A DNA stretch of 55,231 nt from Alphaproteobacteria bacterium. GTDB taxonomy: Bacteria > Pseudomonadota > Alphaproteobacteria > TMED109. Below, one piece after another: positions 2,420-51,152 of this stretch. The stretch is from the NCBI GenBank assembly GCA_022825235.1, contig JAJDYI010000033.1, forward strand, positions 1-55,231. Direction: 5' to 3'. The position numbers were made by a program, and so were the translations under genes. The notes under the pieces are model-generated. The model was given only the letters and a program-made list of their open reading frames with translations, searched no databases and had not been told where the DNA came from. How positions within the stretch are numbered: position 1 is the stretch's first letter; every line of letters begins with the position of its first letter.

Positions 2420-2661
2420 ACACCTCCATTCCACGAACCTGCTTACCTCAGTGGGTTTTCAGCCCGTACGAACAATGCACGTGAGATCGGGCAAGTTCAT
2501 ACAGGGGGATGCGCGGTCAAATTGAGACGGGCGCGAGGCGTGGGAACCCCGATTCGCGGACCGTTGCGTAACGGAGGAGACACCCGCACCCAGAACGCTG
2601 GAGCAAGCTTCGCGGCGGTCTTTCCGGACGGCCTTTCGGGCAGCAGGGCGCTTCGGCAGCG

Positions 2662-4200
2662 CTAACCGTCCAGGTTCTCGCGCGCCAGCTTGCGCAGTGT
2701 CGCAAAGAGCTCGGGGTCGTTGATGACGCGGGGAACCTTGTTCTGCCCGCCGAGCTTCCCGCGATCCTTCATCCACGCGGCGAACCCCCCCGGAGCGAGG
2801 ACCGCAACGCGGGGCGGCTCCAGGCCCCAGCCGTCAGCGCGGTGCGCCGCGTAGTCCTCGTTCAGGCGGAGGAGCACCGAGTCGACGCTCGCCGCGAATC
2901 TCTCGATTAGCGCAGCGCCTACGTCGCGATCGGCAAACTCGACGATAAAGAGGTGCCCCCCGCGTTGGCCGCTCCGTTCCGAGAACATGCTGCCGACCGC
3001 GAAGTCGTTCACCGTCGCTCCGATGGCCGCCGCCGCTTCCGAGACCGCAGTTTCCAGCTCGGTGCCGATCACGTGTTCGCCGAACGCTGAGAGCGTGTAG
3101 CTGGTCCGGCCCGTCACCAGAACGCGCGGCGGGTCACGACTGACGAACGTCACGGTATCGCCCACGAGATAGCGCCAGAGGCCCGCCGCCGTCGATACGA
3201 CCAGGGCATAGTTCACGCCGGTCTCGACATCACCGATCCAGCGGCAATCCTGCTCGCTGGCGTCCAGATCGCTCACCGGGACGAATTCGTAGAAGATCTC
3301 GTTGTCCAGGAGGAGGCGGAGCCCGGCGCCGTCCACGCCGTCAGCTACCCCGAAGAAGCCCTCGCTCGCCGGGTAGACCTCGCGGGTTTCCGCGCTGGAG
3401 CCCTCGAGGAGCGCCCTGAACCGGTCTCGATAGGGCGCCCAGGCCACACCGCCGTGCACGAGCAATTCGAGGTCCGGGTAGACGGCAGCGATCCGCCCCT
3501 CCGCAGCGCCTGCAATTTCGAGAAGCCGGTCGAAGTAGATGAGGAGCCAGCTCGGCGTTCCGCCGACCGCGCGGATGTCCCCCTGCAAGGAGCGGCGGGC
3601 AAGACGCTCGACCTTCACCTCCCAGTCGGCGATGCCCTCCAGGCGGCGCGGCGGAAAGTACCGCAGGCCCGCCCAGGCTGGCCGCACCGCTGCCGCGATG
3701 CCGCTGAGGTCGCCGCTGTACACGCCGCGCGCGTGACGCGTCAGGCCCGTCGATCCTCCCAGCATGAAGCACCGCCCGGCCAGCACTCGGCTGTCCGGGC
3801 GGTTGGCCACGTGATGGACGAGCAGGTCGGCCACTGCACGGGTGTTGGAGCGGTTGATTTCACGACTGACCGGGATGAACTTCGTGGATCCGCGGGTCGT
3901 TCCTGACGACAGGGCGAAGTACGGGATGGTCCCGCGCCACGTGCAGTTCACGAGTCGGGGAAACGGATCGCGCCAATAGGTGTCCCAGAACGCCTCGTAG
4001 GACCGGACGGGGACCCGCTCGCGAAAGTCCGCCAGCGACTGGATCGCTTCGAATTCATGTTGGTCGGCGAATTGGGTACCGCGCGCACGGCGAACAAGCG
4101 ACAGCAGGACGCGCTGCTGGGTCTCTTCCGGTTTCATCCGCTTGAGTTGGCGCAGGCGCCGGTTGGCGTACGCCCGGAGCACCCAGGTCGCGTCGTACAC
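2662..4200 (-). CDS. GH3 auxin-responsive promoter family protein
   Basis: 512 residues matching the GH3 family of ANL-type adenylating enzymes. The N-terminal part has the typical QFADQHEFEAIQSLADFRERVPVRSYE segment (shown here only as a landmark at residues about 42-70), then the phosphate-binding loop FALSSGTTRGSTKFIPVS and the later acyl-adenylate region with YLVGDTVTFVS. Plant GH3 enzymes conjugate amino acids to carboxylic hormones; bacterial members are of unknown substrate. It lies 32 bases downstream of the penicillin acylase-like gene on the same strand, so the two are probably cotranscribed and may handle amide bonds in related molecules (inference). Confidence 0.85.
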   Translation of the reverse strand: MYDATWVLRAYANRRLRQLKRMKPEETQQRVLLSLVRRARGTQFADQHEFEAIQSLADFRERVPVRSYEAFWDTYWRDPFPRLVNCTWRGTIPYFALSSGTTRGSTKFIPVSREINRSNTRAVADLLVHHVANRPDSRVLAGRCFMLGGSTGLTRHARGVYSGDLSGIAAAVRPAWAGLRYFPPRRLEGIADWEVKVERLARRSLQGDIRAVGGTPSWLLIYFDRLLEIAGAAEGRIAAVYPDLELLVHGGVAWAPYRDRFRALLEGSSAETREVYPASEGFFGVADGVDGAGLRLLLDNEIFYEFVPVSDLDASEQDCRWIGDVETGVNYALVVSTAAGLWRYLVGDTVTFVSRDPPRVLVTGRTSYTLSAFGEHVIGTELETAVSEAAAAIGATVNDFAVGSMFSERSGQRGGHLFIVEFADRDVGAALIERFAASVDSVLLRLNEDYAAHRADGWGLEPPRVAVLAPGGFAAWMKDRGKLGGQNKVPRVINDPELFATLRKLARENLDG

Positions 4201-37950: not shown

Positions 37951-38039
37951 GCCGTCGCCGCTATTTGCGATTCTCCTGCAATACGATAATACAGGCGGGC
38001 ACTGTTTTCATTCCTGCAAACAAGGAGCGTTGCGTCGCA

Positions 38040-39218
38040 ATGGCCTCCGATTCGAGCAGCCGGCCGCACGGCCGCAACGTGCAAGGTCCAGGCGGCTACA
38101 CCGCCTTCGTGCCGGCGCCGTTGGCTCCGCCGATCGCATGGGACGCAGAACTCGTCGCCGCGCTCTCCGGCGCGGACCGGGCGATCGGCCGGCTCGCGGG
38201 CGAAGGCTGGCGCTTTCCCAATCCGCATCTCTTCATCAACCCGTTCCTTCGCCGGGAAGCGGTGTTGTCAAGCCGGATCGAAGGCACCCGGACAACCCTG
38301 GAGGAGCTGCTCGCCGCCCAGGCGGGCGCGATCGCCGGGCCGGCCTCCGATGATCTCGAAGAGGTCGTCAATTACGTCAAGGCGCTGGAGTACGGACTGG
38401 ACCGGCTGGACACGCTGCCGCTGTCCTTGCGCCTCATCCGGGAGGTCCATGAACGGCTCATGCGCGGCGTGCGCGGTGACACGGCAACGCCCGGTGAGTT
38501 CCGGCGCAGCCAGAACTGGATCGGGCCGCCCGGCTGCACCTTGAGCGAAGCGCGCTACGTGCCGCCGCCCGCCGACCAGCTCATGGCGTGCCTCGACGCC
38601 CTGGAGCGGTTTCTTCATGACGACACCCTACCGCCGCTCATCCATGCCGGCCTCGCACACGCACAGTTCGAGGCCATTCACCCGTTTCTCGACGGCAACG
38701 GCCGTGTGGGCCGCCTTCTCATCACGCTCCTGCTGGTGCAGTGCGAAGTGCTGCCGTCGCCGCTGCTCTATCTGAGCGCATATTTCGAGGAGACACGCGA
38801 GGAGTACTACGCCCGTCTCCTCGCGGTGACGCGGGAAGGGACGTGGGAGAAATGGCTCATCTATTTCCTGCGCGGCGTCCGGCTCCAAGCCGACGATGCG
38901 ATCGATCGCATGGAGGAGATCGACGGCCTGTTCGAGGATTGGCGGGGAGCGCTGGCCGGCATTCAGTCCGGGCGACCGGAGGGCGTGCTGCGCCTTTTCG
39001 TAGAAAACCCCTACTGGACCGTGCGCGGAATCGCGCAGGAGTTAGATGTGGCCTATACGACGGCCCGGCGCGCCATCGACCGGCTGGAAGCCGCCGGAAT
39101 CGTCTCGCCTGTCGGAGACGCAAGACGCAACCGCGTCTATTGCGCCCGCAAAATGCTCGACATTCTGATCGCGCCCCGCGCTACCGGCCGCCCTGGCTCA
39201 AAGGACGGCGGATCCTAA
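38040..39218 (+). CDS. Fic family AMPylase with N-terminal inhibitory helix
   Basis: 392 residues. The catalytic Fic motif HPFLDGNGRVGR is intact at 214-225. The inhibitory motif S-x-x-x-E-G is visible at 77-82 (SSRIEG), before the Fic core, placing it in the class regulated by its own N-terminal helix. A winged-helix domain (VRGIAQELDVAYTTARRAIDRLE) ends the protein. Fic enzymes transfer AMP to protein targets. AAGGAG precedes the ATG, with a rather long spacing of 12 bases. Confidence 0.95.
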   Translation: MASDSSSRPHGRNVQGPGGYTAFVPAPLAPPIAWDAELVAALSGADRAIGRLAGEGWRFPNPHLFINPFLRREAVLSSRIEGTRTTLEELLAAQAGAIAGPASDDLEEVVNYVKALEYGLDRLDTLPLSLRLIREVHERLMRGVRGDTATPGEFRRSQNWIGPPGCTLSEARYVPPPADQLMACLDALERFLHDDTLPPLIHAGLAHAQFEAIHPFLDGNGRVGRLLITLLLVQCEVLPSPLLYLSAYFEETREEYYARLLAVTREGTWEKWLIYFLRGVRLQADDAIDRMEEIDGLFEDWRGALAGIQSGRPEGVLRLFVENPYWTVRGIAQELDVAYTTARRAIDRLEAAGIVSPVGDARRNRVYCARKMLDILIAPRATGRPGSKDGGS

Positions 39219-39480: not shown

Positions 39481-40146
39481 TCAGAAACGGATTGGCGCGG
39501 ACAACGGTGCCCGGAGCACATCGGGTAAATTGCTGTGACGCTCGATCCACGCGCGGACGTCGGACGAAATCCATCCCATGGCCTCCAAGAGGTCGTCATG
39601 ATCCTTGTGTGGATCCCGGCCGACAATTGGTTCGTGATGCGCGATCCGGTTTCGAAGCCGTCTCAGGTCATTAAGTCTTTGCTGCACTTTCCTGCGAGAG
39701 TGGCCCGGAAACGCCCTGTGTAGAGCCGGACGCCACAGCGTCCTTTCATAGTCCGCCTTGCGGCCGCCATTGCCCCATCCGCCACGGCCGACGAGCCGAA
39801 CCCAGAAGCCCAGCGACATCTTTGCCACGAAGTGATCCGCGGTCGGTTCGCCCGCAGAACGACGGAGGACGCCCGCCATACTGTCATGTGCGTGACTGTC
39901 GAGGCCGGCGGCAGGGTTCGTGTACCATTGGCTGCCGTATCGTTCCTCGAGCCGGGCGTGTATCGCGTTCCGCAAGGCAACCTCAAGGGCCTGCAACGGT
40001 CCATGGAACGCGGCCCCCAGCTGGACGTTTCTCGCATAGAGCTGCAAGGCGGTCCCATGATCGCGCCCGGCGGCGTCCAGGTAAGTTTGCATCCGCTCGG
40101 GCGAGAAAGCTCTTTCAAGCGCATGAAAGGCATTGACATCCATCAT
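39481..40146 (-). CDS. Abi-family (AbiD/AbiF-like, HEPN) protein
   Basis: 221 residues of the Abi_2 type. Helical segments include GPLQALEVALRNAIHARL and the terminal HEPN-like motif LRRLRNRIAHHEPI, where R-x4-H gives the RNase-type active site. Abi_2 proteins cause abortive infection when phages attack. I chose the ATG pair at 40146/40143, since similarity begins with FHALERAFSPERM. A strongly structured inverted repeat lies 20 bases upstream. No second protein partner is present. Confidence 0.88.
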   Translation of the reverse strand: MMDVNAFHALERAFSPERMQTYLDAAGRDHGTALQLYARNVQLGAAFHGPLQALEVALRNAIHARLEERYGSQWYTNPAAGLDSHAHDSMAGVLRRSAGEPTADHFVAKMSLGFWVRLVGRGGWGNGGRKADYERTLWRPALHRAFPGHSRRKVQQRLNDLRRLRNRIAHHEPIVGRDPHKDHDDLLEAMGWISSDVRAWIERHSNLPDVLRAPLSAPIRF

Positions 40147-40166
40147 TGAACGACTTACCTTCAAGT

Positions 40167-40226
40167 CCGTAACCCCCCGGGTCCGCCTCTGCTTTATGCA
40201 CGCGCCCGGGGTTTGTCTTTGTACGG
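40167..40226 (-). ncRNA. candidate structured RNA upstream of the Abi gene
   Basis: On the minus strand the sequence folds as CCGTA, an eight-base bulge, AACCCCGGG, then an inner CGC-G-TGC stem with ATAAA loop, and pairs back as GCA-GAG-GCG, CCCGGGGGGTT and ACGG. It is far more structured than surrounding DNA. Some AbiF-type proteins are known to be paired with an adjacent RNA antitoxin. A leader structure, or a terminator in the plus direction (CCCGGGG is followed there by a loose T-rich run), are alternatives. Confidence 0.4.
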
Positions 40227-40574
40227 GTTGTGATCGGCCTCGATACACGGGCCCGTATGCATGTCAGTCAGCGCAATGTCGCTGGGAGTGTATTTGCACG
40301 ATCCTCGGCGCAGAAGACTCGATTCACCGCGTCGTCCGCGACCTCCAGCCATGCCCGCGTTTCGGCGCACAGTAGCGGCGAGGGCGTGGCGACTCCTCGG
40401 CAGTACCTCGATTCTCTCAGCCCTTTTTTCGTGGTCATGGTTCTTCACGGCTCTGACAGCACAGACGCCGGGCGAACGTAACCGACATTCTCATTGCCGT
40501 CATTTCTTCTGGCAGCTTCTCCCCATTGCGCGATCCTCGACGTGTCTTCCTTGTCGTGTGCTCCGCGACAGCTC

Positions 40575-41787: not shown

Positions 41788-42723
41788 CTACACAGATATC
41801 GGCAAGACGCTGTGCACGGGCCGCAGATACTTCCCCAACGTCAGCGCATCGTATCGATTGAAGAAGGTTTCGAAATGGAACTGTTGGCGATTGCCATTGT
41901 CGTCGATCAGGATGAGCTCGTCCTCTCCGAGCGGCCCCCCACCCTGCGCGCCGCAATACCCGGACACGTCCCCGAAGAGCTGCGCCTCTGAGATTTTCCC
42001 GAAATGCCTCCTGAACGCCGGCGACCGGATGAAGTGCCGGCACGGATCGCCCGGATCGAAATTCTTGCCTCTCTTGCTCGGGTGTGGGTGACCAGAAATC
42101 ATGCCCACCAGAGGCCGGTCGGCACCAAAGGATTCGACGACTCGGTACAGGGTCGTCGAAAGCGTATTGCCGAATATTTCCTTGAGCGCCTGCACCGCTT
42201 CGATCGACGGTTCGAGGGAACGCGCCTCATCGGTGAACCGCTCGCGCAGAAAGAGCAACCGTCCCGCAGCAAAATTGGCTTGCGCTTCTACTTCTTCCTG
42301 GCAGGCCGGAGTCAGGGTGAGCGAGTTGTCGCCGAGCATTATCGCTTCATGCCAAGGAAGAAGGCTGTGCCCTATTTCATGTCCCTCGCTCCAGCGATGC
42401 TTCAGTCTGGGCAACGACCTATCGAGAAGAATCCGCCTCCGATCCGGAATGTAAAGCGCCTGGAGTGAAGCCTTCCTGATCGCGTCGATGAGCAACGTCG
42501 GTCGCCTGTAGATTTGAATCCCCGCTACACGAATCCGGCTGATGGTCTCCTGCAAGATTCCGGGATCGTCCGCAGTGTAGAAGTCGAGATCGAGCTTCAG
42601 CAGCTCGCGGACGTCCTCCAGCCGAAGCGGGGGCTCGGGATGACCGAGCCCCCGCAACACGCGTTCGACGCGCTCATCAATGTCCTTCGCTGTCTTTTCG
42701 GACAGGACGCGGTTCCTAGCCAA
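41788..42723 (-). CDS. ImmA/IrrE-type metallopeptidase
   Basis: 311 residues with the zincin motif HEIGH at 115-119 (EGHEIGHSLLPWH) and further conserved EEVEAQANFAAGRLL. ImmA/IrrE proteases cleave partner repressors of the XRE type, relieving repression upon damage or phage signals. The gene is the last of a four-gene operon and starts 17 bases after the HTH gene stop. The C-terminal half (with CRHFIRSPAF) has no known domain I recognise and may sense a signal. Confidence 0.92.
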   Translation of the reverse strand: MARNRVLSEKTAKDIDERVERVLRGLGHPEPPLRLEDVRELLKLDLDFYTADDPGILQETISRIRVAGIQIYRRPTLLIDAIRKASLQALYIPDRRRILLDRSLPRLKHRWSEGHEIGHSLLPWHEAIMLGDNSLTLTPACQEEVEAQANFAAGRLLFLRERFTDEARSLEPSIEAVQALKEIFGNTLSTTLYRVVESFGADRPLVGMISGHPHPSKRGKNFDPGDPCRHFIRSPAFRRHFGKISEAQLFGDVSGYCGAQGGGPLGEDELILIDDNGNRQQFHFETFFNRYDALTLGKYLRPVHSVLPISV

Positions 42724-42740
42724 ATCCCGTCCCCTATTCG

Positions 42741-43226
42741 CTACTTCTGCTCGCTGAGCACGGCAACGAAGGCTTCCAGCGCCGCGCCCTCTTCCGGCGT
42801 CAGCTCCGCGGTCGACTCCGAACGCGCGGCAAACCGGACACCCTCATCGAACAACCTCGCATCCTTCAGCGCAGCCAGTCCCGCCACCTGCATGAGTCCG
42901 GCTTGCGGAACCTTGAAATAGTTGGCGAGTTGGTAGGCCGTTCGCAATTCCGGTCTGTGGTACGGGTCGCTCTCCGCTTCCACCAGATCGGCCATATCCA
43001 CATCCGCGTCGTCGGCAAGCTGCTCCAGACTCATGCCCCGCTGCCGTCGCATCAGATTGACGAACCGCCCGAATGCCACGTTCGGACTCTCCTCCTCGGC
43101 CACGTCCGCGGGAATGCGCTCGCCGTCGAACACCGGATCGATCGCCAGCCGACCCGCGCCGATCTCGGCGTCGCCCTCGCGCTGCGCCATGCGCAAGCAC
43201 CAGTCCTTGCTGATTTCGATCTTCAT
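42741..43226 (-). CDS. XRE-like helix-turn-helix protein, ImmA partner
   Basis: 161 residues. The middle region FGRFVNLMRRQRGMSLEQLADDADVDMADL is an XRE-type helix-turn-helix (residues about 51-80; landmark). The N-terminal 45 residues and the C-terminal helix are unassigned. It is followed by ImmA, which in known pairs cleaves this class of protein. It overlaps the GNAT gene upstream by four bases. Confidence 0.85.
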   Translation of the reverse strand: MKIEISKDWCLRMAQREGDAEIGAGRLAIDPVFDGERIPADVAEEESPNVAFGRFVNLMRRQRGMSLEQLADDADVDMADLVEAESDPYHRPELRTAYQLANYFKVPQAGLMQVAGLAALKDARLFDEGVRFAARSESTAELTPEEGAALEAFVAVLSEQK

Positions 43227-43858
43227 TTCGATCTCCCCTTCGCAATGAAGGCCTGCGCGTCCTCTGGGGTCATCTCGAAGTAGCGCAGACCCTCGTGGTC
43301 AGGATCGGCTCCTAAATCCGTCATCCCGCAGGTATTGGCATAGAAACCGTTCGCCTGCGGCAGCGAATGAAGCCCGATCCTTCCGTGAAACTCCAGCTCC
43401 TCGCTCAATGCCACAGCAGCCCTGATCAGGATGCTGCCGACACCGCGATAACGCGGAGGATCAAACAACTCGGCCCGGTTCCACGGCGCGTTCTCGACAA
43501 ATTCCACGTAGACGAGATGCTGCCCCTGCTGACCATCCAGCCGTCCCCGGTGCTTCACCGTGTCTACGATCATCATGCCCTGGGTTGCTCCATCGCAAAC
43601 GATGCTGAAACCCGGGTTGGCCAGCATCCCCTGCAGAGCCGCCACCTTCCTGCGCCAGTCCCAGTGTCGGCTCTGCGGCCAATGGGCCCGCTCAACGCCC
43701 GCCCGCCTAAGTCGCTGCATCGCCCTGAACAGCTCCGGCACCCACTCTCCTTCCCAGTCTGCCAGCTGCTCTTCGGTGATGACGTGCCAAAGCTCAGCGG
43801 CCACCGACTCGCCACTCGCCACGTCCATCAGATGAACCTCCGTGACTTCTACCGTCAT
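43223..43858 (-). CDS. GNAT-family acetyltransferase
   Basis: 211 residues. The acetyl-CoA loop is seen in RYRGVGSILIRAAVALS (R-x-x-G-x-G/S) and the C-terminal GNAT strand in HSLPQANGFYANTCGMTDLG. Preceded and overlapped by a small RHH-like gene (four bases), the arrangement is that of GNAT toxin modules in which the RHH protein is antitoxin and the enzyme acetylates aminoacyl-tRNA. The N-terminal extension of about 90 residues is unusual for that toxin group, so a non-toxin enzyme is also possible. Confidence 0.8.
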   Translation of the reverse strand: MTVEVTEVHLMDVASGESVAAELWHVITEEQLADWEGEWVPELFRAMQRLRRAGVERAHWPQSRHWDWRRKVAALQGMLANPGFSIVCDGATQGMMIVDTVKHRGRLDGQQGQHLVYVEFVENAPWNRAELFDPPRYRGVGSILIRAAVALSEELEFHGRIGLHSLPQANGFYANTCGMTDLGADPDHEGLRYFEMTPEDAQAFIAKGRSK

Positions 43859-44067
43859 AGCATCATGACCTCGACCTTTTCTTTCGTGGCCTCGTTCTCG
43901 AAGAACAGCTTGTTGCCGCTCTCCAGACGCGCCTCGATCACCTGATACATCCGCAGGGCCTGGCGCAGCAGCGCTGTCTTGCTCAGCTCCCTCTTCTCGC
44001 TCAGCGCCTCCAGGACCGCCATCTCGGCTTCCGTGAGGTTGAGCGTCATCGTTCTCTTGGCCGCCAC
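43855..44067 (-). CDS. ribbon-helix-helix-like antitoxin
   Basis: 70 residues from a GTG: VAAKRTMTLNLTEAEMAVLEAL, an RHH-type strand and helix, then KRELSKTALLRQALRMYQVI and a C-terminal tail. The GTG at 44067 is preferred as AGGAGGAAGGAG precedes it and homology starts at AAKRTMTLN. It heads the RHH-GNAT-HTH-ImmA operon and likely represses it. Confidence 0.82.
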   Translation of the reverse strand: MAAKRTMTLNLTEAEMAVLEALSEKRELSKTALLRQALRMYQVIEARLESGNKLFFENEATKEKVEVMML

Positions 44068-44388
44068 CGCTCCTTCCTCCTCGCGCACGTCTCCGAGCAA
44101 GTCAAATATAAGACCTTTTTGGCCGAGAGTCAATCAAAAAGAAAATAGTATATGGTCCTTGAATAGCTAAAAAAGAGCCATATCTTACACCTCCAGCCCA
44201 AGGCAGTTCGCCGCATGGAGGCTTCGTTCGTTGGTACGCACATCCCGATCCCGGATGGGGGACCACATGGTGAAGGCAGTTCAAAGCCACCAGCCGGAAC
44301 CCACGTATCGAACGCGCAGTCGCCGCTCGGCAACCGCCCATCAACGCCAACCCTGGCAAAACCGAACCAATCCGAAGGAGGGTTCCCA
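44068..44388. promoter_or_regulatory. divergent promoter region with inverted repeat
   Basis: This 320-base interval separates the two divergent operons (RHH-GNAT-HTH-ImmA and Ubl-E1-DUF6527). Its first half is AT-rich. ATATGG (44150-44155) and CCATAT (44178-44183) form an inverted repeat that could bind the RHH or HTH regulator. No gene is seen in it. Confidence 0.5.
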
Positions 44389-44655
44389 ATGACCCGCAAC
44401 GATCCCGAAAAGAAAATCGACATCATCGTCAACGGCACGCCCCACCCTGTCCCAGGCGTCCCAGGCGACGAGGTATCGTTCGATCAAGTCGTCGACATCG
44501 CGTATCCGGACGGCGGACGCGGCCCGCTGATCACCTACACGGTGAACTTCTACAACGGTGCCGGCCGCCCACCCGAGGGCAAGCTGATTGAGGGGCAGGA
44601 AGCCAAGGTCAAGGACGGGACCGTGTTCAATGTCACACGCACTGATCGCTCGTAG
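44389..44655 (+). CDS. ubiquitin-like (multiubiquitin-domain) protein
   Basis: 88 residues: KKIDIIVNGTPHPVPGVPGD opens a beta-grasp domain, followed by SFDQVVDIAYP, ITYTVNFYNGAG and GTVFNVTRTDRS at the end. This is the bacterial multiubiquitin-type domain, present once here. The C-terminus lacks a terminal Gly-Gly, so conjugation in the standard manner would need another mechanism. An AAGGAGG seven bases before the ATG sets the start. Its 3' end overlaps the E1-like gene by 26 bases. Confidence 0.85.
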   Translation: MTRNDPEKKIDIIVNGTPHPVPGVPGDEVSFDQVVDIAYPDGGRGPLITYTVNFYNGAGRPPEGKLIEGQEAKVKDGTVFNVTRTDRS

Positions 44656-45826
44656 CCGCGACCTGCAGCGTTTGCAAGACGAGGGCTACACGCTTCGCAT
44701 TGTCGACCAGGCCTACCTTCTGGTCGACAATGTCCCGTATGTGACTGCTCAGGGCGAGGTTCATGAAGGCACTCTGGTGATGGACCTCACCTTGAATGAC
44801 GACGTCACGGTGAAGCCGACCACCCACGTCGCCAGTTGGACCGGCGAGTTTCCCCACTGCGCCAACCGTGAGAAGCTCCTTGCGTTGCTCGCGGAAGGCG
44901 CTGGAAAGACCTCGCTCTCCGATTCGTTTCCATCGGTCTATCAGTTCTCAGCCAAACCATCTGGCGGATACGAGGACTACCACCATAAGGTATCGACCTA
45001 CGTCGAAATTCTTGGCCGTGAGGCCAGGCAACTCGACCCGAACGCGAAGGCCCAACAGTGGAAAGTCACAATCGACCACGAAGATGACGAGAACGTCTTC
45101 CACTTTGCCGATACCGCCTCAGCGCGCCAGAACACGACCGACCTCGCCCGGAAGCTTCAGCCCGAGCGGGTAGCCATCGTAGGCGCAGGCGGGACCGGTT
45201 CTTATGTCCTCGATCTTGTAGCGAAGACATGGGTTCGGGGGATCCATGTGTTTGACGACGACCCGTTTCTCCAGCACAACGCCTTCCGTTCGCCTGGCTC
45301 CTTTGCGCGAGAGGAAATCGAAGGAGGTCCGATCAAGTCGACCCTTCATGCCGGCAGGTATGCCTCCATGCGGAAGGGCATCGTCGCCCACGAGACATGC
45401 ATCGATGACACCAACGTCGTGCAGTTGGGCGACTTCGACACGGTTTTTCTCTGCATGGACGGCCATCCGATCAAGGCGAAGATCCTGGACTTCTGCCTCG
45501 CCCACAACACCCTGCTCATTGACGTCGGCATGGGATTGCATCGCATGGGTGATTCGCTCGCTGGCACCCTCCGAACGACTACCTTTCTCTCCGGTCACAA
45601 CGACCACGCTGAGCACTGCATGGACATGGCAGGTGACGATGCGGAGGGTGAATACGACCGCAATGCCCAGCTTGCGGAGCTGAATGCGCTTAACGCCGCG
45701 CTCGCCGTGATCAAGTGGAAGAAGGTTCGCGGCTTCTATAACGACCTAATTCGGGAGCTCAGCTGCGAGTACGTCATCGATGGCAACAAGCTCATGAACT
45801 CCTTCCGCCTCGACCCGCCTTCATGA
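44630..45826 (+). CDS. ThiF/E1-like adenylyltransferase with N-terminal domain
   Basis: 398 residues. The N-terminal 150 (with TTHVASWTGEFPHC and Cys77) form a separate domain often seen before ThiF in these operons (DUF6791-like). The ThiF/E1 core begins VAIVGAGGTGSYVLDLVAK, with nucleotide loop 185-191, acidic Asp209-211 (HVFDDDPF) and FRSPGS. Cys330 (AEHCMDM) is a candidate thioester cysteine. It should adenylate the Ubl encoded just upstream. It overlaps the next gene by four bases. Confidence 0.88.
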   Translation: MSHALIARSRDLQRLQDEGYTLRIVDQAYLLVDNVPYVTAQGEVHEGTLVMDLTLNDDVTVKPTTHVASWTGEFPHCANREKLLALLAEGAGKTSLSDSFPSVYQFSAKPSGGYEDYHHKVSTYVEILGREARQLDPNAKAQQWKVTIDHEDDENVFHFADTASARQNTTDLARKLQPERVAIVGAGGTGSYVLDLVAKTWVRGIHVFDDDPFLQHNAFRSPGSFAREEIEGGPIKSTLHAGRYASMRKGIVAHETCIDDTNVVQLGDFDTVFLCMDGHPIKAKILDFCLAHNTLLIDVGMGLHRMGDSLAGTLRTTTFLSGHNDHAEHCMDMAGDDAEGEYDRNAQLAELNALNAALAVIKWKKVRGFYNDLIRELSCEYVIDGNKLMNSFRLDPPS

Positions 45827-46272
45827 AACTGTGCCAGATCACGCCCGCATTCGTCGACGAGATTCCGCGCGAGCTGGAGCCGGGCAAGCTTTACGTCTGC
45901 TGCCGCTACCGTGCGGTGAAACACCTCTGTGCGTGCGGCTGCGGCGTCGCCATCAACACCCCGCTGCACCCGACCGCCTGGACGCTGATCTGCAATGGCG
46001 TATCAGTCAGCTTGTGGCCGTCGATCGGCAATTGGAGCGAGAGCTGCCAGTCTCACTACTGGATCCGCAATTGCAGGATCCAATGGGCTCCAAAGTGGTC
46101 CCCACGACGGATCAAGAAAGAGCGAGCACCTCGGCAGCTGGAACTCGAGCGCTACTTCGACACCAAGGTGACTTCCGAAACTCGCCGACCCTTTCAGTTT
46201 GAACCCTCAACCTCGTCCCCTTCGTCCGGCTGGTTCAAACGCCTTTGCGACCTGTTCCTCCGCCGCCGGTAG
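45823..46272 (+). CDS. DUF6527-like protein of the Ubl operon
   Basis: 149 residues. A likely metal site is formed by HLCACGCG (Cys36, Cys38, Cys40) and CQSHYWIRN (Cys75, His78), with VSLWPSIGNWSE between, a pattern typical of the family found after multiubiquitin and ThiF genes. The C-terminal 50 residues are basic and variable. An E2, ligase or deconjugating role is not established. It is the last gene of the operon (ATGA overlap) and converges on the UDG-like gene. Confidence 0.82.
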   Translation: MKLCQITPAFVDEIPRELEPGKLYVCCRYRAVKHLCACGCGVAINTPLHPTAWTLICNGVSVSLWPSIGNWSESCQSHYWIRNCRIQWAPKWSPRRIKKERAPRQLELERYFDTKVTSETRRPFQFEPSTSSPSSGWFKRLCDLFLRRR

Positions 46273-46429: not shown

Positions 46430-47074
46430 TCAAGCGTCATCGCAATGCCCATACAATTCCCTGATCTGCCGCAAAAAAATCTTCTGGCCTCCATAACTTG
46501 GATGCCGAACCTTTACGACAAGTTGAGGACGGTACAGCCGAAATGCCGCCACAGCTGCATCGTTTCCGATCGGAATCAGCCTACGCGGACACAAGAGCCC
46601 AATGAGTTCTGACAGCAAATCTTCGCCCGCCCGCCGTTCTTTTGAATTGTGTCCCCGATTAGTAAACGGGCTTCTTGCGACATGCGGATGCAGAGGGAAC
46701 ACGTTCCACAGAAAAACCGGTTCCTCGATTTGCTCCAGCACGGACCAAACAATCTTAGCCGTTCGTTCAGAGACCGCCTCTCCTTTCGTTGGCCGCTCGA
46801 CCGTCACGTTCCATCGCGCTGCATGGGTAACCAAATTGACGTCATCGGTCAGCGCCAGCCCGGTCCGTCGTCCACCTCGATGTCCGAGGTCTCTCCCCAA
46901 CCACAGTGCATCCACTTCCTCTTCTACCGCTGCATTCAACATGGCAAGCAGCGCTCTACGTCTACGGACCGGTGCATCCTCATGGTCATATACAGAGCAC
47001 CGTTCAGAATAAGGATTGAACGCGTTCTCGAACTTCAACTCCCGCACAGCGTCGACGAATTGTTCTGGAGTCAT
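46430..47074 (-). CDS. uracil-DNA glycosylase-like protein
   Basis: 214 residues. LWLGRDLGHRGGRRTGLALTD corresponds to the uracil-recognition loop region of UDG-superfamily proteins. VFLWNVFPLHPH and the C-terminal VRHPSYGGQKIFLRQI match the active-site Asn/His segments. The substrate is unknown. It is the last gene of a four-gene operon with TIR, Nmad2-like and MazG-like proteins, three bases after the latter. Its composition is AT-richer than genes at 1-30 kb. Confidence 0.8.
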   Translation of the reverse strand: MTPEQFVDAVRELKFENAFNPYSERCSVYDHEDAPVRRRRALLAMLNAAVEEEVDALWLGRDLGHRGGRRTGLALTDDVNLVTHAARWNVTVERPTKGEAVSERTAKIVWSVLEQIEEPVFLWNVFPLHPHVARSPFTNRGHNSKERRAGEDLLSELIGLLCPRRLIPIGNDAAVAAFRLYRPQLVVKVRHPSYGGQKIFLRQIRELYGHCDDA

Positions 47075-47077
47075 ATG

Positions 47078-48241
47078 CTAGCTCCCGCCAAGGCGACGGT
47101 ACCCTATCTCTCGAGCACGCCGATTGCCGATGACCACGCCCCCGTTATTCTCTTGCAGCTGCCTGAAAACGCCATAGCCCTCTAAGATTGCAGTTTCCCA
47201 AAGTACTAGTGGACATGCCTCTACCTCGTAACCTCGAACAAATTCTTGAACACCCTTCAACAGATCGAACGACACTCGGTTTTGATCTCGGAAATACTCC
47301 ATGGCTTTAGCTCGCGAAAATACCCACGCCGTTAAGCCTTCCTCCACCACTATTGCTCTTCCTCCATCCTGATCACGATCATATGCCGGGTCACTCTTAC
47401 GCTTCTGCTTGATCAATGCTCGAAATACAGGTGACCAATGTAATATAGCCGCATGCGCCAGATGAAAAACGTCATGAAATCTGTAATCGTCATTCTCGCC
47501 AATGTTGTCCGTAAGCGGATCGCCGATGAATACACCGTTCCACTGCAAATAGCTTTGTCCATTCTTTCGCTGTGTGAATGAGATCTCGAACTCATCTGGC
47601 AAGCGTTCCTCTTCGGGAAACTGGGCATCGAATGTCGGCAGGGTCTGAAAGTCGGGCTCCAAGAAGCGACCTCGCGCCTTTTCGGCGTTTGTCCGTACAA
47701 TTTCAGCAAATGGGATTGAAGCTGTTTGAACTGCTTGCAAATACACATCTGCGAATGAGCGCAAAGCACGTTCAGTATCGTCCCCCGAGCTCGACACTGA
47801 GAGTAGCTTTGAGGTCGCGCCGCCCAATTTCACCAGGACATCATCGAGTGATGCCAGTTCGGCCGCGCCGGAAATTCTTGAAATTGGATACGCAGGGGCA
47901 TCGCCCGCCGCAATGACATGACCGTATCTTTCCCCCGTAGTCGCCTCAGCAAATATATTCTCCAGACAATATTCAAGCCGTCTACAGAGCGTCGCGAAGT
48001 ACCAAAGAGCATCGCCCAACTCCTCGACTACCGCAACTCTGTAGCCTGAGTACGCTGTTTCTTCCCGATGGAGTTTCTTTATCGTTGCCATGACACTGCC
48101 AACTTCTCCAAACAATCCAAATAGGATCGGCCGGAGATCCTTCAAAGGCAGTTGATCGGTTGGCAGGATTTCTTTCTCGTAGTCGCGTAGCAGCACCGAT
48201 TGCTGTCGAAGCGAAGAAGCCGCCATAGTAATCTGTCTCAT
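47078..48241 (-). CDS. MazG-like nucleotide pyrophosphohydrolase with extra C-terminal domain
   Basis: 387 residues. The N-terminal all-alpha NTP-pyrophosphatase domain is seen in FGLFGEVGSVMATIKK and VVEELGDALWYFATL, which hold the Glu and Asp metal ligands of MazG/dUTPase-type helices. The remaining 220 residues include a conserved-looking HDVFHLAHAAILHWSP and VEEGLTAWVFSRAK, and are unassigned. MazG proteins hydrolyse NTPs or dNTPs. The gene lies between Nmad2-like and UDG-like genes with short spacings of 23 and 3 bases. Confidence 0.82.
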   Translation of the reverse strand: MRQITMAASSLRQQSVLLRDYEKEILPTDQLPLKDLRPILFGLFGEVGSVMATIKKLHREETAYSGYRVAVVEELGDALWYFATLCRRLEYCLENIFAEATTGERYGHVIAAGDAPAYPISRISGAAELASLDDVLVKLGGATSKLLSVSSSGDDTERALRSFADVYLQAVQTASIPFAEIVRTNAEKARGRFLEPDFQTLPTFDAQFPEEERLPDEFEISFTQRKNGQSYLQWNGVFIGDPLTDNIGENDDYRFHDVFHLAHAAILHWSPVFRALIKQKRKSDPAYDRDQDGGRAIVVEEGLTAWVFSRAKAMEYFRDQNRVSFDLLKGVQEFVRGYEVEACPLVLWETAILEGYGVFRQLQENNGGVVIGNRRAREIGYRRLGGS

Positions 48242-48264
48242 GGATCTAGCAATCTATCGCGAGA

Positions 48265-48858
48265 TCAATCCAGAGGATCCCCCAAATAGCCCTGCTGATC
48301 GAGAGAACGCAACCATGTAGTGAAGTCCCGAGCAAGATCATCAGGGAAGTTGCTCTTGTGATTGCGTCCAGCGCATATGTCATGACCGCTGTAATCTCGG
48401 AAGGCTTGATCGATAGGTGGACCATTACCTCCCCAGAATGCGTACTCCGCCCCCACAAGCACCCGATCCGCTTGGGTATCGTTGCGAATGTTGTGCAGAT
48501 TGGGGGCGCCGTCTGCGTAGCTATGATGCGAATCCTGCTGCTGCCAGCGACCGCGCTCATCCCTGTAATAAATGTTATCTCCAAACGCTTGTTTCAGACT
48601 GCCACGAAGATTCGGACGCTTCATGAGAAAGCGTTCGGCGAGCCAGTATTCGTTAAACGTCATGGCTTCTGAAACACGCATCGCAAATACAAGACGTCCT
48701 TGACGACCACGCACCTTGCTTCCGGTTCCAATAATCCAGTCGCCAAGCGCGGCTGCTTTCCTTATTCTAGGCTTGCACGTTGCCAGAGTACAAATTCCAA
48801 AAAACGGATTTGGCGCAAATCCATAATCTCGCGCGACAACATAGGAAAATAACTTCAT
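48265..48858 (-). CDS. Nmad2-like (nucleotide modification associated) protein
   Basis: 197 residues. GFAPNPFFGICTLATCKPRI and LGDWIIGTGSK at the N-terminus and FGDNIYYRDERGRW in the middle match the Nmad2 family, found near DNA base-modification and phage genes. Biochemical activity is unknown; a modified-nucleotide binding or synthesis role has been proposed for such domains. It starts eight bases after the TIR gene stop, inside the operon. Confidence 0.85.
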   Translation of the reverse strand: MKLFSYVVARDYGFAPNPFFGICTLATCKPRIRKAAALGDWIIGTGSKVRGRQGRLVFAMRVSEAMTFNEYWLAERFLMKRPNLRGSLKQAFGDNIYYRDERGRWQQQDSHHSYADGAPNLHNIRNDTQADRVLVGAEYAFWGGNGPPIDQAFRDYSGHDICAGRNHKSNFPDDLARDFTTWLRSLDQQGYLGDPLD

Positions 48859-48866
48859 TCTCGGCT

Positions 48867-49343
48867 CTACGCACAGCTGTATCGCTTAATCTGGCGGGGA
48901 GTGGGAGACGAGCCGTCCGGATTCTGCCAACCATCGATGTCTCCATTGATGGCGTCAATGATGCTGTTGCCAGTCCAACCGACCACTGCGTCCGCATATT
49001 TTGCCAGGGCTTCCGGCAATTCACAGCCAGCTTCACCATGCGCCCAGACACCGACAATACGCTTGTCCGCCTTGTGAGCGTATTCAATTTCCCAATTTAC
49101 ATAGTCACTGTCTTTTGTTTCAGGAGACACGTATACTACAACTGTCGAGCACTGCTGTATTCTTGGTGCTAGAATTTCTGACTTGATATAGTTTTCTGAA
49201 TGAGCATTGTTGGGATTGTCTGAACTGATGGAATAATCCCGGATCGTCATCCCGTTAGCGTTGAGCAAACCCTTCAGTTTGCCCAAGCCCGCATCATCCT
49301 CGCTAATGTGACTCACAAATACGTTCTTGATTTGATCTGACAT
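48867..49343 (-). CDS. TIR-domain protein (MTH538/ThsB-like)
   Basis: 158 residues, nearly all one TIR domain. NVFVSHISEDDAGLGKLKGLL is the first strand and helix, and NWEIEYAHKADKRIVGVW includes the candidate catalytic Glu. VVVYVSPETKDSDYV lies between. TIR domains of this group in Thoeris-type systems use NAD to make a cyclic signal, or deplete it. This gene heads the operon with Nmad2-, MazG- and UDG-like genes. Confidence 0.88.
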   Translation of the reverse strand: MSDQIKNVFVSHISEDDAGLGKLKGLLNANGMTIRDYSISSDNPNNAHSENYIKSEILAPRIQQCSTVVVYVSPETKDSDYVNWEIEYAHKADKRIVGVWAHGEAGCELPEALAKYADAVVGWTGNSIIDAINGDIDGWQNPDGSSPTPRQIKRYSCA

Positions 49344-49875: not shown

Positions 49876-50751
49876 CTAGTTTGCATCTCGGCGTGCCACC
49901 CACTGTGTATGCTCCCGAGAAAACGCCAATTCTGCCTCGTTGACGAAATCCGAAAACTCCTCCTCCGATGCTACCGCGTCTGACCGCGCTCGAATAATCC
50001 CAATCTCGTGGGCCGTCAAGTTATAGCTTGCAATCAACTCTCCGTGCCTCTTCATTTGCAGCCAGCCCAACGCCGATGTTGCCACAACAATTAAGGGATC
50101 GAATGCCAGCAAAATATAACTCACTCCGAACTCTTCCGCATTCAAACTGACGGCAGCGGCCACGTAGACCCCGACTGTCACTGTGATCCAGAGCCGCAGT
50201 GCCTTTCTATTTTGTGCTGACTTATTCACATACCAACTACGCTGATCATCAATACGATGCGCGACATAATACGAAATTCTTTCTTCAAGAATTTGTCCAC
50301 GTGCCTTAATCATTGACTCGGTGACTTGATCCGCATGCGCATCATGCAGATTTTCGGCGATATGCTGATTCGCCCTAAGTATATCATGCAAGAGATTTCG
50401 GAATTCAGATTTTGGAATCGCAATATTTGCCGCATCTGCAAACGGATGGGCTCGCATCGTGAACCGCCAAGTTGCTGTCTTTATGGATTCAGCCAATGCT
50501 CGACACTGGTACCAATCCTGATCCTTCTTCTTGAAGACCTTGTATACAAGTAGTCCGGCCAATACCACCAAGAATATGGAAATCAATAGAGGTGAAATTC
50601 CAGTCAATGTACGAGTAGCAGCTATTCCGCTGACACAGAACAGCAGGAAGTACTCCCACTTGATGATCCGCAGAAAATGACCCTGAGCAAGATTTGATCC
50701 ATTATCTGCACTCCGATAAAGTGCTGGAAACTCGAATCCAGTGCCACTCAT
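49876..50751 (-). CDS. SLATT/DUF4231-type membrane effector
   Basis: 291 residues. Two hydrophobic helices near the N-terminus (FLLFCVSGIAATRTL and LLISIFLVVLAGLLVY) are followed by DQDWYQCRALAESIKTATWRF, the SLATT signature, and a second membrane pair at about residues 215-260. SLATT proteins are predicted pore-forming effectors in defence operons. The ATG at 50751 overlaps the upstream TIR stop by four bases. An in-frame longer start would duplicate coding with the TIR gene. Confidence 0.88.
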   Translation of the reverse strand: MSGTGFEFPALYRSADNGSNLAQGHFLRIIKWEYFLLFCVSGIAATRTLTGISPLLISIFLVVLAGLLVYKVFKKKDQDWYQCRALAESIKTATWRFTMRAHPFADAANIAIPKSEFRNLLHDILRANQHIAENLHDAHADQVTESMIKARGQILEERISYYVAHRIDDQRSWYVNKSAQNRKALRLWITVTVGVYVAAAVSLNAEEFGVSYILLAFDPLIVVATSALGWLQMKRHGELIASYNLTAHEIGIIRARSDAVASEEEFSDFVNEAELAFSREHTQWVARRDAN

Positions 50752-51152
50752 GATATTTGCCGAATCCCTGCTACGATCGAATCTGTATTCCAGTTCACCA
50801 CCAAATTTGATGCTTGTGAGACAGCTAACGGCATTCGTTGAGCGCCCCAAGGCCGCACGCCTAGAACTGGCTTTCCAATGCTTCGAGAAAAGTCCATTTC
50901 GAATTGGATCCAGTCGCTATAGGAAGTCCACATGCCCGCAATGATAATTACACAGTGAACTGGTCGAATCTGCTGTCGTAACTCTTCTTTCATCCTAGCG
51001 GCTGCCAACGGCCCGAACGCCTTCGTCGCAGGTACGGAGTAGTTTCGCCACGAAAAGTACCGTCGATTGTTGAGCAGGTTAACCATTGATGTGTAGTTGC
51101 CATCGTATGACCATGAATGACTGATGAAAAGACGTTTTGGGATCAAAACCAT
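50748..51152 (-). CDS. TIR-domain protein (ThsB/MTH538-like) paired with SLATT
   Basis: 134 residues: KRLFISHSWSYDGNYTSMVNL opens the domain, then CVIIIAGMWTSYSDWIQFEM with the candidate catalytic Glu, and IGKPVLGVRPWG. This is the small ThsB-like TIR. Unlike the other TIR gene it is followed by a membrane protein gene that overlaps it, so the pair is probably a two-gene defence system in which TIR makes the signal and SLATT acts. Confidence 0.88.
   Translation of the reverse strand: MVLIPKRLFISHSWSYDGNYTSMVNLLNNRRYFSWRNYSVPATKAFGPLAAARMKEELRQQIRPVHCVIIIAGMWTSYSDWIQFEMDFSRSIGKPVLGVRPWGAQRMPLAVSQASNLVVNWNTDSIVAGIRQIS

Follow-up and report, generated by a model that had tools for sequence, protein, structure and literature searches.

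A mobile, widely conserved TIR-Nmad2 operon with exchangeable base-processing enzymes as a candidate antiphage system

The window analyzed here, a stretch of 55,231 nucleotides of contig JAJDYI010000033.1 (assembly GCA_022825235.1) from an alphaproteobacterium of the TMED109 lineage, contains on its minus strand an operon of four genes (46430-49343) coding for a TIR protein, an Nmad2 protein, a MazG protein and a UDG-superfamily protein. The TIR protein (48867-49343; 158 amino acids) matches the Pfam family ThsB_TIR (4e-21) and, over its full length, the PADLOC ThsB model PDLC00418 (1.4e-64). It is followed by the Nmad2 protein (48265-48858; 197 amino acids; Pfam Nmad2, 3e-65), a protein that combines MazG and MazG_C domains (47078-48241; 387 amino acids; MazG_C, 3.5e-79; MazG, a sub-threshold 0.017) and the UDG-superfamily protein (46430-47074; 214 amino acids; Pfam UDG, 3.4e-6, exceeding the family cut-off). 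The shared strand and the intergenic gaps of 8, 23 and 3 bases, taken from the coordinates of the open reading frames (ORFs), agree with the initial annotation of this locus, and the profile searches bear out its identification of all four proteins. The C-terminal domain of the MazG protein (residues 200-382), which that annotation described as large and unassigned, belongs to a family that already has a name, PF18722 (MazG_C).

Relatives of Nmad2 were sought in plasmids, a phylum sample of genomes, viral contigs and genome contigs. They were found in 18 plasmid records, in 6 of the 398 genomes of the phylum sample and in at least 517 genome-contig stretches, the best 80 of which make up the genome-contig loci; an alignment search detected ten IMG/VR loci with Nmad2, several of which carry the operon. 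No Nmad2 was found in GenBank phages or, by single-sequence search, in viral contigs, and a DNA search of Escherichia coli genomes with two probes retrieved no relatives. In phages, no relatives of the operon UDG were detected, and those of the MazG+MazG_C protein correspond to the pyrophosphatase part only. In the combined set of plasmid, phylum-sample and genome-contig loci, simple gene calling gives 85 of the 98 loci a TIR gene as the immediate upstream neighbor of Nmad2. A frame search uncovered six more TIRs hidden under longer overlapping ORFs, and three loci are cut by contig ends; after this search, 91 of the 95 loci that have upstream sequence carry the TIR gene directly 5' of Nmad2. 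The four true absences comprise three loci of a distant Nmad2 clade and locus L078. Nmad2 proteins of the distant clade that lack the TIR are paired with Nmad3 and AbiE-like genes in L107 (5111-8912) and with an Nmad3-lookalike protein in L106 (5998-7511), and they represent a further, separate Nmad2 system. Locus L012 holds, besides its first TIR-Nmad2 pair, a divergent one that adjoins a large patatin-like phospholipase (2-2542, 2621-3790).

The complete order TIR-Nmad2-MazG-UDG recurs in 18 other loci, which span Pseudomonadota, Chloroflexota, Nitrospirota, Binatota, Acidobacteriota and Omnitrophota, and also in the IMG/VR loci L110 and L113. Given the near-constant position of the TIR gene 5' of Nmad2 and these 18 loci, chance is excluded as the source of the gene order: the operon is real, mobile and widely conserved. 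Its distribution across phyla is patchy, it is carried on plasmids and prophages, and phyla are intermingled in the Nmad2 tree, a pattern that mobile genes should give. In the window, the G+C content is 0.52-0.54 across 46-52 kb, compared with 0.59-0.69 (near 0.66) over most of the remainder, which points to an acquired island, and the MazG_C family has no matches in 27 other genomes searched from the same taxonomic family. The initial annotation had called for a genome search for the gene order and had let its reading depend on whether the four genes co-occur elsewhere and whether they are housekeeping genes in relatives. The 18 loci settle the former; as for the latter, the source genome (a 3.85 Mb assembly in 87 contigs) encodes two further UDG-superfamily proteins on other contigs, so that the operon UDG is not the sole housekeeping copy.

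The core of the system is the TIR-Nmad2 pair rather than the four genes together, and MazG-UDG is one among several exchangeable modules. The originally proposed link to nucleotide or base chemistry is supported, as is a mobile or defense-island context. Of the 64 loci flanked on each side by 4 kb or more, 58 hold at least one gene for MazG, UDG, the 5-hydroxymethyldeoxyuridine (5-hmdU) DNA kinase (HMUDK_hel), a thymidylate synthase (TS)-like protein or a dCTP-deaminase-like protein, the commonest sets being kinase with MazG (18 loci), MazG with UDG (15) and kinase with TS (10). MazG is present in most UDG loci. UDG (30 loci) and the kinase (44 loci) co-occur in none of 93 loci (Fisher 1.4e-11, with the kinship of the loci ignored). 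Tracing UDG versus kinase on the best Nmad2 tree requires 12 or more changes, only a few of which are forced by well-supported branches, and an independent-pairs test of the exclusion is underpowered. Even the nearest relatives of the window differ: L023 has UDG, and L022 has MazG, the kinase and a deaminase-like gene. Across the 19 four-gene sets (the 18 loci and the window), the correlation of distances is highest for MazG-UDG (r 0.83) and TIR-Nmad2 (0.67), with cross-module values of 0.44-0.62, suggesting two units that travel together. The theme shared by the exchangeable enzymes is deoxyuridine-type pyrimidines, which makes uracil, 5-hydroxymethyluracil or a derivative a likelier trigger than a purine. 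In four loci (L065, L067, L082 and L059), type I restriction genes (HsdM, HsdS and HsdR) are interspersed among those for TIR-SLOG, TIR, Nmad2, MazG and the 5-hmdU kinase within a single run.

The operon TIR protein is ThsB-like. Its family profile matches the solved ThsB structures 6lhy/9b7d at 7e-5 (a search of solved structures with the single TIR sequence yielded no useful match), and the sequence has the combination of a predicted catalytic glutamate and an opposing phenylalanine that is characteristic of the ThsB TIRs of Thoeris. This candidate catalytic pair, F9/E85, is conserved in 98% (F9) and 97% (E85) of the relatives, and its spacing resembles that of F6/E81 in staphylococcal ThsB2, where mutation of these residues disrupts immunity (PMC12578639). 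In addition, 84 of the 85 TIRs that are partners of Nmad2 have a cysteine among the final five residues, in 53 cases as the very last residue; in the TIR of the window, this near-invariant cysteine is Cys157. The corresponding figures are 5 of 50 for other TIRs of the same loci, one of these five being a partner TIR overlooked by gene calling, and 5% for other proteins. A cysteine also ends a small number of other TIRs located next to membrane-type partners (L030, L061, L080 and L083). Because Nmad2 itself has two cysteines conserved among its relatives, Cys23 and Cys28, it is possible that the two proteins form a joint site.

For Nmad2, a search of solved structures by sequence gave only chance-level matches. 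An AlphaFold2 model built from 77 aligned sequences is confident (predicted local distance difference test, pLDDT, 93.5; predicted template modeling score, pTM, 0.89), and ASCH, EVE and YTH domains dominate its Foldseek matches in the PDB (best E-value 0.026), which include THYN1, the N-terminal domain of McrB and VcaM4I. In VIA-align, YTH domains come first, with YTHDC1 at Z 8.3 and a root-mean-square deviation of 3.8 over 132 residues. The single scores are modest; given the coherence of the list, a PUA-like (ASCH/EVE/YTH) fold is likely. Domains of the PUA superfamily serve restriction enzymes as sensors of modifications (PMC7897488), and binding of hypermodified thymine or uracil has been suggested for such domains (PMC7641849). 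The model thus makes Nmad2 a candidate reader of modified bases.

The N-terminal part of the MazG protein is predicted to adopt the all-alpha NTP-pyrophosphatase fold and to resemble dimeric dUTPases. In the model (pLDDT 87), residues 12-195 match these enzymes with Z 10-11 (11.1 for the Campylobacter jejuni dUTPase and 10.6 for a phage dUTPase), and the MazG profile matches DCTPP1 at 4.5e-5. Of the four metal ligands of the ExxE...ExxD motif, three (E46, E74 and D77) are retained; E73 is also conserved. The MazG_C domain shows numerous invariant polar residues, among them H256, D257, H260, R274 and R295, and is probably an enzyme domain. Searched as part of the whole MazG model, it gave no structural match; a relationship to the helical domain of the 5-hmdU kinase was considered and rejected, as profile comparison detected no similarity (probability 0.1%). 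The UDG protein contains a motif-A-like GRDLG (D62) and the motif B HPS (RHPSYGG, H191), both conserved in 30 relatives; two relatives read GEAPG at motif A, as in family 4. Judged by these motifs, namely the acid or amide of motif A and the HPS of motif B, it is a predicted member of the UDG superfamily; with its sequence alone, a search of solved structures returned no useful match.

Most of the TIR-Nmad2 loci include a second TIR gene, often with effector-like partners. A second TIR lies within 6 kb in 49 of the 64 loci, and an SLOG cluster 2 (SLOG2) protein is encoded in 32 of the 64, often as a two-gene or fused TIR-SLOG combination; other partners are a two-TM-like protein, SLOG cluster 3 and a patatin-like or unassigned protein. 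In the window, such a pair sits just upstream of the operon, also on the minus strand: a second ThsB-like TIR (50748-51152; 134 amino acids; Pfam ThsB_TIR, 3.4e-14) and a membrane protein with SLATT_3 and SLATT_1 domains (49876-50850; Pfam SLATT_3, 3.7e-34; SLATT_1, 8.9e-32), the start of which is probably an in-frame ATG near 50751 that overlaps the stop of the second TIR. An equivalent pair adjoins TIR-Nmad2 in L061. The SLATT protein is a candidate effector, and the second TIR is its probable sensor or signal partner. According to PMC11204291, SLOG is part of ThsA, the effector activated by cyclic ADP-ribose; by analogy, a Thoeris-like relay from the operon to the second TIR, SLOG or SLATT partners is plausible.

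Taken together, these observations suggest that the operon is, with high probability, antiphage. We infer, in line with the initial annotation, that nucleotide sensing triggers the TIR protein, and the reading that we prefer is that of a mobile, Thoeris-like TIR system triggered by modified pyrimidines, which in its entirety has a little less than an even chance of being correct. Nmad2, with its predicted fold, would bind a modified pyrimidine in phage DNA or in the nucleotide pool, most likely one of the deoxyuridine type (U, 5-hydroxymethyl-U or a derivative). The dUTPase/DCTPP1-like MazG would act on the matching dNTP and UDG would excise the base from DNA, which could curb the use of this nucleotide, present it to Nmad2 or avoid self-triggering, with the 5-hmdU kinase substituting for UDG in sister loci. 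Bound Nmad2 would then activate the TIR protein, which, judging by its kinship with ThsB and the F9/E85 pair, might consume NAD+ or produce an ADP-ribose signal. The signal or the loss of NAD would lead to arrest or death of the cell, possibly via the TIR+SLATT pair here and TIR-SLOG elsewhere. Somewhat doubtful, in our view, is a version in which a chemical mark switches on the TIR, with Nmad2 reading deoxyuridine-type bases, the enzymes converting phage modifications to a readable form and the TIR relaying the signal to SLOG or SLATT.

Several points weigh against the preferred reading. The matches of the Nmad2 fold are distant, with Z around 8, and values of 7-8 can arise between unrelated folds. 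The first metal motif of MazG has S49 in place of the second glutamate, a position occupied by serine or glycine in 53 of 63 alignment rows, which renders the activity of this enzyme uncertain, and MazG_C carries neither a fold nor a function assignment. The 80 genome-contig loci are those closest to the window, so that the sample is biased and partly related. Six of the 64 loci lack any base-processing gene; hence, these enzymes are not obligatory. Finally, the TS and deaminase modules would make modified deoxyuridine, a poor fit to a pure purge model. The absence of enzymes from those six loci would be easier to understand if this were a general Thoeris-like TIR defense with a phage protein, such as the capsid, as the trigger, Nmad2 as a structural adaptor and MazG-UDG as a separate housecleaning or glycosylase defense that travels along. 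Indeed, ThsB1 and ThsB2 of Thoeris sense the capsid protein (PMC12578639), defense islands gather unrelated systems, divergence is more closely matched inside each of the two modules than across them, and MazG-UDG is divergent or displaced in L013, L014, L019 and L037. Nevertheless, the 58 loci that have one of a few functionally linked modules are more coherent than random neighbors would be, the modules substitute for each other rather than accumulate, and the predicted fold of Nmad2 is reader-like; accordingly, we consider a phage-protein trigger to be rather unlikely.

In the sister modules, the genes for TS-like and dCTP-deaminase-like proteins and for the 5-hmdU kinase are of the kinds that phages use for hypermodified DNA, the kinase family is represented in 493 phage records, and TS and 5-hmdU kinase domains occur in validated defense systems (PMC13092281). 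These facts are compatible with a scheme in which the enzyme module makes or marks deoxyuridine-type bases in infected cells, and the TIR-Nmad2 guard, on reading this mark, brings about the death of the cell. In the window, however, a dUTPase-like protein and a glycosylase would remove such bases, and the operon includes no synthesis gene, so that this scheme appears improbable. That all the enzymes handle nucleotides or bases, and that the Pfam family names derive from nucleotide modification, could also fit an operon for hypermodification or repair of host DNA, in which the TIR would be regulatory and not immune. The patchy, plasmid- and prophage-borne, cross-phylum distribution, the lack of MazG_C in the sister genomes searched together with the presence of other UDG-superfamily genes in the source genome, and the constant ThsB-like TIR with its second TIR-effector pairs make such a host function very improbable.

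Gene sets with the same kinds of domains have been predicted to be defensive before, so the operon is probably not without precedent. The initial annotation knew of no described system with this exact set; Fig. 6F of the DefensePredictor study (PMC13092281, April 2026) shows predicted systems with MazG, MazG-C, NMAD and UDG, which, compared by domain names, probably are the same family of operon. The text of that article, which cites a nucleotide-centric bioinformatic survey of 2015, states that the highlighted nucleotide-related domains were not yet validated, and it discusses neither a mechanism nor a fold, an exchange of modules or a coupling to TIR for these predictions; the folds and the module exchange described above are added mechanistic leads. 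Fig. 3C of the same article presents validated E. coli systems, with 5-hydroxymethyluracil kinase and thymidylate synthase among the domains newly linked to defense, and its legend lists NMAD among the domains of validated systems. Compared by domain names, these systems resemble the sister loci that pair TIR-Nmad2 with kinase and TS-like genes, whereas the window has MazG and UDG in place of the kinase and TS domains. With Thoeris, the operon shares a ThsB-like TIR with the F/E pair and neighbors (TIR-SLOG, SLATT and TM proteins) that resemble sensor-effector pairs. It differs in its constant Nmad2 and base-processing enzymes and in that no ThsA-type gene (SIR2-SLOG or Macro) was detected by Pfam scans of the neighbors in 44.2-51.2 kb and of selected genes in 38-44 kb. 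Brig1 and Brig3, UDG-superfamily enzymes that defend against T-even phages, provide, at the superfamily level, another case of actual or predicted action on non-canonical bases in a defense setting; unlike the operon UDG, they work without TIR or MazG. In restriction systems of the PUA superfamily (EVE-HNH VcaM4I and the N-terminal domain of McrB), a PUA-like reader, as predicted for Nmad2, is likewise paired with a defense effector, which there is a fused nuclease and here a TIR protein in trans.

Phages evade restriction through hypermodified thymine and cytosine. If the preferred reading is correct, a TIR pathway that reads DNA marks would represent a cellular answer to this escape, TIR sensing would gain a non-protein trigger, and the recurrence of phage-hypermodification enzymes in bacterial defense islands would be explained. 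The interchange of UDG and 5-hmdU kinase leads to a testable prediction, namely a substrate common to both.

Further genes of interest lie near the operon. On the plus strand, genes for Multiubiquitin, E1-like DUF6791-ThiF and DUF6527 proteins follow in succession (44215-46272); this bacterial ubiquitin-like conjugation operon probably is another defense system on the island. Toxin-antitoxin-like neighbors include a Fic protein gene (37965-39218, plus strand) and a gene for a HEPN/Abi_2-like protein (39481-40248, minus strand). To the same group belong genes for an M78 protease and an HTH regulator (41788-43226) and an antitoxin-like RHH gene next to an unassigned partner (43223-44133), all of them on the minus strand.

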